From assembly GCF_014643735.1 (NCBI RefSeq), contig NZ_BMKA01000002.1, positions 124,001 to 188,000 on the forward strand: a DNA stretch of 64,000 bases, written 5' to 3'. Below the pieces are notes generated by a model. The model was not told the origin of the DNA and searched no databases. It was given only the letters and a program-made list of their open reading frames with translations. The DNA is from Neptunicoccus cionae. Its GTDB lineage: Bacteria; Pseudomonadota; Alphaproteobacteria; Rhodobacterales; Rhodobacteraceae. The number at the start of each line of letters is the position of its first letter. Positions within the stretch are counted from its first letter, which is position 1. The position numbers were made by a program, and so were the translations under genes. This document shows, one piece after another, positions 30,801 to 56,690 of the stretch.

Positions 30801-30830
30801 CCATGCAAAAACTGCATAGCGGGGTTGAAC
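30801..30830 (+). promoter_or_regulatory. T-N11-A palindrome plus AGCGG element, copy A
   Basis: CC followed by ATGCAAAAACTGCAT (30803-30817), then AGCGGGGTTGAAC. The palindrome fits the T-N11-A form of LysR-type operators. It lies upstream of the candidate sRNA at 30970 and matches copy B at 31067-31096 in the palindrome, in AGCGG and in the TTGA(A/C)CAAA that follows. Confidence 0.6.
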
Positions 30831-30893
30831 AAACGGGTCTTTCCCATCGGCCATTCAAACCCTAGATAAGCCTCAACGCTTCGGTGAGCTTTG

Positions 30894-30936
30894 AAAACTT
30901 GCAGTTCCTCCCAATCCACGAAAGTGGGCAGTTTTT
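30894..30936 (+). terminator. Hairpin with CCTCCC and U-tail
   Basis: AAAACTTGC (30894-30902) pairs with GCAGTTTTT (30928-30936), one base bulged. The intervening bases contain CCTCCC (30907-30912) and a small CCCA/TGGG stem. It may terminate tupBC or be an extra unit of the sRNA described next. Confidence 0.45.
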
Positions 30937-30969
30937 ACAAAGTTCCCAAGCTGTCAGCCGGTATCGGCT

Positions 30970-31057
30970 GAACCAACGGATCGCCTTTTCCTCCCTGTTG
31001 GGGCGGTCCGAAGAATAACGGCGGTGCGCCCTCCCTCGCACCGCCGTTTATTTTTTG
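30970..31057 (+). ncRNA. CcsR / cuckoo-like small RNA
   Basis: Two consecutive hairpins each expose CCTCCC in the loop. Hairpin 1 is a 9-bp stem (30977-30985 with 31002-31010) with a 16-nt loop holding CCTCCC at 30990-30995. Hairpin 2 is a perfect 12-bp stem (AACGGCGGTGCG 31017-31028 with 31037-31048), has loop CCCTCCCT and ends in TATTTTTT, a Rho-independent terminator. Two-stem RNAs with such loops that lie next to a DUF1127 gene are the hallmark of the CcsR (cuckoo) RNAs of Rhodobacter and relatives; here the RNA precedes the DUF1127 gene. The 5' end is not determined. Confidence 0.7.
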
Positions 31058-31066
31058 AAAAGACAT

Positions 31067-31096
31067 CCATGCGTTCAACGCATAGCGGTTTTGACC
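31067..31096 (+). promoter_or_regulatory. T-N11-A palindrome plus AGCGG element, copy B
   Basis: CC followed by ATGCGTTCAACGCAT (31069-31083), then AGCGGTTTTGACC, about 100 bp before the DUF1127 ATG. The half-sites differ from copy A by compensating changes (ATGCA/TGCAT against ATGCG/CGCAT), which indicates that the palindrome itself is under selection. Confidence 0.6.
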
Positions 31097-31184
31097 AAAT
31101 GCGGTCTACTCCGAGGGGCCTGAATGATTAGGTTCCGCTTAAGAACATAAACGATAGACACACAACGCCGGAAAGGATCTTCCA

Positions 31185-38434: not shown

Positions 38435-38509
38435 GCGGGCGTAGCTCAGGGGTAGAGCATAACCTTGCCAAGGTTAGGGTCGAGAGTTCGAATCTCTTCG
38501 CCCGCTCCA
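38435..38509 (+). tRNA. tRNA-Gly (anticodon GCC), copy 1
   Basis: 75 nt including encoded CCA. The acceptor stem is GCGGGCG/CGCCCGC, the anticodon loop TTGCCAA reads GCC, and the T loop is TTCGAAT. A terminator hairpin follows at 38539. Confidence 0.97.
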
Positions 38510-38638: not shown

Positions 38639-38713
38639 GCGGGCGTAGCTCAGGGGTAGAGCATAACCTTGCCAAGGTTAGGGTCGAGAGTTCGAATCTC
38701 TTCGCCCGCTCCA
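38639..38713 (+). tRNA. tRNA-Gly (anticodon GCC), copy 2
   Basis: Identical in sequence to copy 1 over all 75 nt, including CCA, and placed 204 bp downstream within the tandem duplication. Confidence 0.97.
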
Positions 38714-55938: not shown

Positions 55939-56690
55939 ATTCGGCTCCTAAAACTGCGATTACCCCTGTGGGGATCACACAAACTGTTAAAGATTAGCCG
56001 AGGGTCGCTGCCGACGGAGCGCCGTTGTGATTGAGTTCACTTGGCGGTGTATAACGACAGGTTTAAACTGAGCGCTCTCAAAAATCAATAATTAATATGA
56101 AAATTATGCAACCCAAGATAGCTTATCCATTAAGTTGTTACAAAGCAGGGTTAAGCAATGCTCCGGTTGCATACGTCGAACAGCTCAACCATTCCGCTTC
56201 CCTACGCCCCCCCATCGGACCTGCCCGCGCTGTGCGATCCGAAGAAAGGCATACGTGTCAATACTCTCAAAAGTATAGGACGCGAAATAATCAAAAACCC
56301 TTTAATAACATGACGTAACTCGAAAAATCACACTTACTCAATAGGTTGAATACGTTAACCCCTGCGCAACCGGAATTTCACTAACCTCCCGTGATGCAAA
56401 AGCTGCCAGGTCTCGCAAACTCGATTCCGAACGGGTGCGATCCCGATAAAAAGGCACCCGAATCTTGCCGATGCCGTGGAAGGATTATGGCGGCAGTGCG
56501 GCGGAAAATTACTACCTTAAGGGGTCATTGGACACAGTATGGACACAGTTCCGCTTCCGCTTTGGAAACAAAGCCAGAAGAAATTAATTTGAAAGAATTT
56601 TTTTTTGACGCGCGGCCGGTCCTCACGCGGAAAAAAATCAGGCCAAACGAATCTCTTGAACCGCCCCTGTCTGCGGGTAAAAGTCCGGTC
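55939..56690. other. 752-bp non-coding, A/T-rich region before tdk
   Basis: No gene is recognised, though the tdk frame stays open upstream from 56391. It contains the CRP-like site at 56026-56041, a 7-bp hairpin CGGGTGC (56432-56438) / GCACCCG (56454-56460), and the direct repeat TGGACACAG at 56529 and 56540. Composition is clearly more A/T-rich than in the neighbours, so it may hold the remains of an inserted element. Confidence 0.5.
56026..56041. promoter_or_regulatory. CRP/FNR-like site upstream of the XRE gene
   Basis: TGTGA-TTGAGT-TCACT matches the TGTGA-N6-TCACA consensus at 9 of 10 fixed positions. Whether a CRP-type protein of this organism uses it is unknown. Confidence 0.3.

Follow-up and report, generated by a model that had tools for sequence, protein, structure and literature searches.

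Two predicted VtlR/LsrB-type recognition sites upstream of a putative anti-Shine-Dalgarno sRNA and a DUF1127 gene in Neptunicoccus cionae

In the 64,000-nt stretch of Neptunicoccus cionae DNA analysed here (the window), two conserved elements of the form ATGC-N7-GCAT stand one before a predicted small RNA and one before a DUF1127 gene. Each is most probably the recognition site of a LysR-type regulator of the VtlR/LsrB family that would switch on both genes, a reading to which we give a probability of about 0.78. Co-activation of the two transcripts by a VtlR-like regulator had been proposed from the letters of the stretch (the sequence-only reading), and as a prediction it is supported: lack of conservation in relatives, lack of further copies before DUF1127 or sRNA genes and transcription starts far from the elements had been named as grounds for giving it up, and none of these, as far as they could be tested, was encountered. 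VtlR control of an sRNA and of DUF1127 genes is already known from Rhizobiales. What appears to be new, judging from the sequence comparisons below, is the inclusion of DUF6280, SorY and CcsR-type RNAs in the candidate regulon, and a regulator missing the redox cysteines of LsrB.

The pattern CCATGC-N7-GCATAGCGG matches the window exactly twice, at 30801-30822 and 31067-31088, both on the + strand; 100 dinucleotide shuffles of the window gave a mean of 0.00 matches, and no shuffle held two. The two elements are genuine and not a product of chance, and their proposed positions, with CC before them and AGCGG and TTGA(A/C)CAAA after them, are confirmed, TTGAACAAA and TTGACCAAA being what follows. 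A third ATGC-N7-GCAT palindrome of the window, at 56158-56172, has no AGCGG flank and is probably a chance occurrence. The closest relatives among the matches listed are Amylibacter cionae, Neptunicoccus sediminis and a Rhodobacteraceae MAG, with DUF1127 proteins 90, 89 and 86% identical to that of the window. Alignment of the intergenic region, suggested beforehand as a check, finds both palindromes conserved at the same places in all three sister species, with intact ATGC/GCAT arms and varying inner bases. In the box on the sRNA side the 4-bp arms are the only part invariant in the four sequences; the seven inner bases read AAAAACT, AGATTCT, GAAATCT and ACAAAGC, and the fifth arm pair (A-T) is retained in two of the four. 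Selection on symmetry, as claimed from the window, is thus supported for the 4-bp arms but not for any longer symmetry.

Table 1. Features of the sRNA-DUF1127 region, in window coordinates
Feature	Position	Strand	Remarks
VtlR-type box 1 (predicted sRNA side), ATGC-N7-GCAT	30803..30817	+	Window sequence, shuffles, sister species
Right flank of box 1, AGCGGGGTTGA	30818..30828	+	Conserved; window sequence, sister species
-10-like CTAGAT, putative sRNA promoter	30862..30867	+	Box 1 start +59; DUF1127 promoters of other Alphaproteobacteria share this offset
Predicted sRNA, about 184 nt	30875..31058	+	Start inferred from promoter spacing
CCTCCC (anti-Shine-Dalgarno) in the predicted sRNA	30907-30912, 30990-30995, 31030-31035	+	
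Terminator-like hairpin of the predicted sRNA	31017..31056	+	CCTCCC in the loop, then a T-run
VtlR-type box 2, ATGCGTTCAACGCAT, before DUF1127	31069..31083	+	Window sequence, shuffles, sister species
Right flank of box 2, AGCGGTTTTGACCAA	31084..31098	+	2 letters differ in one sister species
-10-like TTAGGT, weak, putative DUF1127 promoter	31128..31133	+	Box 2 start +59; CTAGGT in Neptunicoccus sediminis
DUF1127 gene, 71 aa	31185..31400	+	PF06568

The spacing between box and -10-like element is shared beyond the window, since [CT]TA..T occurs at box start +59 in 17 of 36 box sites upstream of DUF1127 (taken from the listed DUF1127 loci and including both boxes of L001-L003), the next best offset reaching 5 of 36. 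Within the window the -10 of the DUF1127 gene is poorer than that of the sRNA, which is a weak point for the VtlR reading. The transcription start would fall near box +72, and so the centre of the box at about -65, the usual place of LysR recognition sites.

The predicted sRNA folds far more stably than expected (30874-31056, z -6.80, with 0 of 200 shuffles as stable) and its mean column identity across four species is 97%, yet one-base indels in T-runs near 30932 and 30985, in comparison with L001-L003, shift any reading frame in it. A small coding ORF within this stretch was considered and ruled out, as these indels between sister species break the frame. The sRNA claimed behind box 1 stands as a prediction, on its fold, terminator-like hairpin, identity and frame-breaking indels, and not as an observed RNA. 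The gene behind box 2 was rightly called DUF1127, with a PF06568 match of 43.2 bits against a cut-off of 23.3. Elsewhere in the window, two tRNA-Gly(GCC) genes lie in tandem (38435-38509 and 38639-38713) with about 130 bp between them.

In the mechanism that we propose, one regulator dimer would sit on ATGC-N7-GCAT, whose centre lies about 65 bp before the start, another would touch the flank nearer to the -35, and the two dimers would jointly recruit RNA polymerase. A single regulator would in this way turn on, as a pair, an anti-Shine-Dalgarno sRNA and a DUF1127 protein, and the three CCUCCC stretches of the sRNA likely block ribosome binding on target mRNAs. The comparisons show the boxes and how they are conserved, together with the genome-wide set of target sites and the neighbouring regulator gene in relatives and, in another species, the distance to a published start; from these we infer that the regulator binds and activates, that another dimer takes part, where transcription starts in the window, and that the sRNA exists and has targets.

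The box is found before DUF1127 genes well beyond the sister species. An exact ATGC-N7-GCAT lies within 430 nt upstream of 42 of the 80 listed alphaproteobacterial DUF1127 loci, against 1/78 and 1/77 like-sized control stretches; the 38 listed loci with no exact box in that range count against the VtlR reading. Counts were made with the long pattern ATGC-N7-GCAT-RNCNG-NN-WTG in 61 genomes from the Rhodobacteraceae, the family to which G001 belongs, in preference to the shorter ATGC-N7-GCATRGCNG, which in 8 genomes gave 33 sites against 1 control, some of them intragenic. The long pattern has 102 sites in 53 of the 61 genomes (101 places, one in G048 being counted on both strands) and the backward-read control 0; the 8 genomes lacking a site again count against the VtlR reading. 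Further copies before DUF1127 and sRNA genes, expected if the proposal was right, are thus present in relatives: 36 sites have a listed DUF1127 domain 168-282 nt downstream, and 29, every one of them on the strand of the gene, follow one LysR gene, 28 at distances of up to 100 nt and the last at 225 nt; 46 of the 61 genomes hold at least one site in either place. The remaining 37 lie elsewhere. Sorting 29 of these by eye placed 9 before DUF6280 genes, 5 before additional DUF1127-like genes, 3 before arrays of CcsR-type RNAs with no DUF1127, 1 before a relocated SorY-like RNA, 6 before other genes and 5 inside ORFs, the last probably by chance; among the other 8 is the sister-species counterpart of box 1, in G001. 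The DUF6280 genes (L212, L220, L237, L242, L245, L248, L253, L254 and L256) have the box about 105-135 nt upstream and form a candidate target family, L248 being assigned to PF19796 by Pfam and the other eight by eye. A site before an elongation factor P-like gene (named by eye; L218, in G061) is a single case and may be due to chance.

One of these genomes ties the box to a published transcription start. Among 394 Rhodobacteraceae, the only SorY above the Rfam cut-off is that of G054 (C4:1632645-1632727), and because this location fits the start at 1,632,642 given for R. sphaeroides in the accessible part of PMC6238624, G054 appears to be Rhodobacter sphaeroides 2.4.1. In this presumed R. sphaeroides genome the box at 1632560-1632574 is centred 75 nt before the published SorY start; it lies between the LysR gene (1631580-1632473), which precedes it, and a gene that by eye is purL-like. 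A second box starts 141 nt before the ATG of a 71-aa DUF1127 gene that is followed by repeated CCTCCTCCC RNAs, an arrangement that fits ccaF1-CcsR1-4 as described in the excerpt of PMC10253847. The third long-pattern site of this genome is within an ORF (L239).

Both SorY and ccaF1-CcsR of R. sphaeroides are RpoHI/RpoHII-dependent according to the available text of PMC8307010 and PMC10253847, and the presumed R. sphaeroides sorY promoter holds CTTG and CCTAAAT-like elements, a pair found in strict form in 13 of 51 SorY-like promoters. Perhaps, then, these stress sigma factors alone drive the promoters, and the palindrome either serves something else as an accessory site or is a relic. We consider this unlikely, as it leaves unexplained a conserved 15-bp element that is found at a similar distance and is common to Rhizobiales loci of the VtlR-dependent kind, and it leaves equally unexplained the regulator gene adjoining the box. 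An activator and a sigma factor are compatible: with the LysR protein acting alongside RpoHI/RpoHII, the two accounts could both be true. The word LysR has no occurrence in the R. sphaeroides papers that were text-searched, which counts against the VtlR reading, and in the open-access papers searched (few subscription papers among them) no link was found between VtlR/LsrB and SorY, CcsR or Rhodobacterales targets.

An orthologue of the VtlR/LsrB regulator that the preferred reading calls for is encoded in every Rhodobacteraceae genome searched. With LsrB of Rhizobium lentis as query, located beside trxB, each of 9 Rhodobacteraceae genomes gave one clear best match (39-44% identity, E 3e-70 to 2e-78), the next-best being at about 30% identity and E 4e-39, and in the reverse search LsrB ranked first in both Rhizobiaceae genomes, making it a reciprocal best hit. 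All 61 Rhodobacteraceae genomes searched, relatives of the window genome, have one match at E<=1e-60, and 91 of 144 Alphaproteobacteria have a match at E<=1e-55. This occurrence favours PMC7486931, the accessible part of which places VtlR/LsrB in many Alphaproteobacteria, over the excerpt of PMC11975290 in which the family is confined to Rhizobiales. The DNA-binding domains of 8 Rhodobacteraceae proteins are 72-80% identical to that of R. lentis LsrB, against 31-41% for 11 paralogues; outside this domain the values are 27-32% and 19-27%. In protein trees the node that would unite VtlR/LsrB apart from the paralogues is weak (support 64/64 with 21 rows, 56/90 with 41 rows), which counts against the VtlR reading. 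By eye none of 5 Rhodobacteraceae trxB loci has a LysR gene within about 1.5 kb. At the four cysteine positions of LsrB, described for its thiol redox switch in the excerpt of PMC11975290, none of the 8 Rhodobacteraceae proteins has a Cys at any column, and among 20 class-wide proteins these cysteines are mostly missing, three keeping one. Since they are missing in all 8 proteins compared, the signal sensed in Rhodobacteraceae is unlikely to be the thiol switch of LsrB.

Binding of the box by VtlR is a prediction, and each genome searched has other LysR proteins; a different dimeric regulator, not the VtlR orthologue, might bind ATGC-N7-GCAT. We give this still less credit than the sigma factors acting alone, as the LsrB-like gene is the one match of its kind in each of the 61 genomes, the LsrB DNA-binding domain is kept, and 29 of the 102 sites are right behind this very gene on the same strand. 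Although AT-rich-centred inverted repeats can be hairpins, it is very improbable that the palindromes belong to RNA hairpins, to terminators or to some repeated mobile element and are not operators, for they lie at a fixed offset upstream of a -10-like element and, in the presumed R. sphaeroides genome, upstream of a published start, and their inner bases vary.

The lsrB genes of Rhizobium lentis and Sinorhizobium terangae have ATGC-N7-GCAT behind them, with ar15/AbcR next. In the 61 Rhodobacteraceae, an exact box is found behind the LysR gene in 32 (control windows 0/122) and a box with at least 7 of the 8 arm letters in 50, where about 0.1 per locus would be expected by chance (an arithmetic estimate, with no control). 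The 12-letter core CCTCCCTGTTGG of a SorY-like RNA is present behind 51 of these genes, and the 10 that have no such core count against the VtlR reading. At 9 of the loci, with the best hit per locus taken, the Rfam model of SorY matched at E 3e-9 to 4e-7, each time under its cut-off, and that of SorX at E 8e-10 to 1e-5, above its cut-off in 4; suhB (clan of ar15) matches at SorY loci were below cut-off. Across 20 loci picked from the 91 Alphaproteobacteria with an LsrB match, an exact box lies within 300 nt behind the gene in 12 and one with at least 7 of 8 letters in 17; SorX-, SorY- or suhB-like Rfam matches occur in 8, all below cut-off, and CTCCC in 18, a weak sign given a chance expectation of about 4 in 10 stretches (arithmetic estimate). 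In one of the 10 genomes with no core behind the LysR gene (L244, G037) a SorY-like RNA and its box lie away from the LysR gene, neither being found behind it, and the box seems to go with the SorY-like RNA rather than with the regulator. In another genome (L147, G011) the LysR gene has two SorY-like RNAs in tandem behind it, and the box there, ATGCACAAAGCGGGT, is degenerate.

The likeness to SorY (RF02651) lies in CCTCCCTGTTGG and a VtlR-type box upstream, and that to AbcR1/2 (ar15, RF02345) in the position behind regulator gene and box and in a CTCCC stretch. Homology was rejected both between the window sRNA and SorY and between SorY and AbcR: the window sRNA scores 15.7 bits with RF02651 (cut-off 111), against a covariance model built from 51 SorY-like RNAs it reaches 11.7 bits (E 0.47), and this model, itself weak (6 base pairs, 5' hairpin unaligned), gives no significant match to AbcR (E 6.5); nor does the window RNA match ar15 in Rfam. 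Therefore we claim for the window sRNA, SorY and AbcR only a shared position and a likely function. A mark of cuckoo/CcsR RNAs is that their hairpin loops show CCUCCUCCC and that a DUF1127 gene adjoins them. The window RNA has two of its three CCUCCC stretches in loops of the minimum-energy fold, and none gives the full nine letters of CCUCCUCCC; its Rfam likenesses to ar14, ar7 and CcsR1 are weak and all below cut-off (CcsR1 26.5 of 65.3 bits, ar14 32.4 of 58.8 bits), so that Rfam does not place it among cuckoo/CcsR RNAs. With ccaF1-CcsR1-4 (the CIN1 locus of R. sphaeroides, cuckoo RNA family, per the excerpt of PMC10253847) the window shares a DUF1127 gene and CCUCCC in RNA hairpin loops, and the presumed ccaF1 has the box before it too; the window differs in having one RNA, which precedes the DUF1127 gene and has a box and a terminator to itself, and CCUCCC in place of CCUCCUCCC.

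Set against the Rhizobiales VtlR/LsrB regulon, the window and its relatives share a LysR regulator with a closely similar DNA-binding domain, a box upstream of an anti-Shine-Dalgarno sRNA as well as of DUF1127, and an sRNA gene right behind the regulator gene (R. lentis and most Rhodobacteraceae searched). In Agrobacterium, VtlR binds the promoter of atu1667 and that of abcR1, which lies close behind the vtlR gene (excerpt of PMC7486931), and Brucella VtlR positively regulates AbcR2 and three DUF1127 genes, the reported motif being CAATGCAGCCATGCA (excerpt of PMC12595884). Judged by position only, DUF1127 genes and sRNAs are likewise the targets here; the sRNA targets differ in being SorY-like and CcsR-type RNAs, and DUF6280 is added. 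TGCATGGCTGCATTG, the complement of the Brucella motif, is one letter apart from TGCATGGCAGCATTG, found in several Rhodobacteraceae sites. It counts against the VtlR reading that the window boxes themselves agree with the Brucella motif in only 11 and 10 of 15 letters, and with the Agrobacterium consensus GCAT-N3-TG-N3-T, as it stands in the published text available, in 6 of 7 specified letters each; they read GCAT-N3-GG, and many listed Rhodobacteraceae long-pattern sites likewise have no T at this position. LsrB of S. meliloti was reported, in the accessible part of PMC7486931, not to control AbcR RNAs, and therefore the presence of a box and an sRNA is no proof of control.

In Rhodobacter, SorY and the CcsR RNAs have been described as outputs of stress sigma factors. 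The VtlR box on both, and the regulator gene beside SorY, predict a missing activator, one that would connect what is known of AbcR and VtlR in Rhizobiales with the studies of SorY, CcsR and DUF1127 in Rhodobacter. It is a tentative thought, to which we give somewhat less than even odds, that across the Alphaproteobacteria VtlR has since ancient times been the master switch for anti-Shine-Dalgarno sRNAs encoded right behind its own gene, with SorY, CcsR/cuckoo and AbcR as lineage-specific outputs, and that thiol sensing by LsrB is a later addition of Rhizobiaceae, the original signal being a different one.
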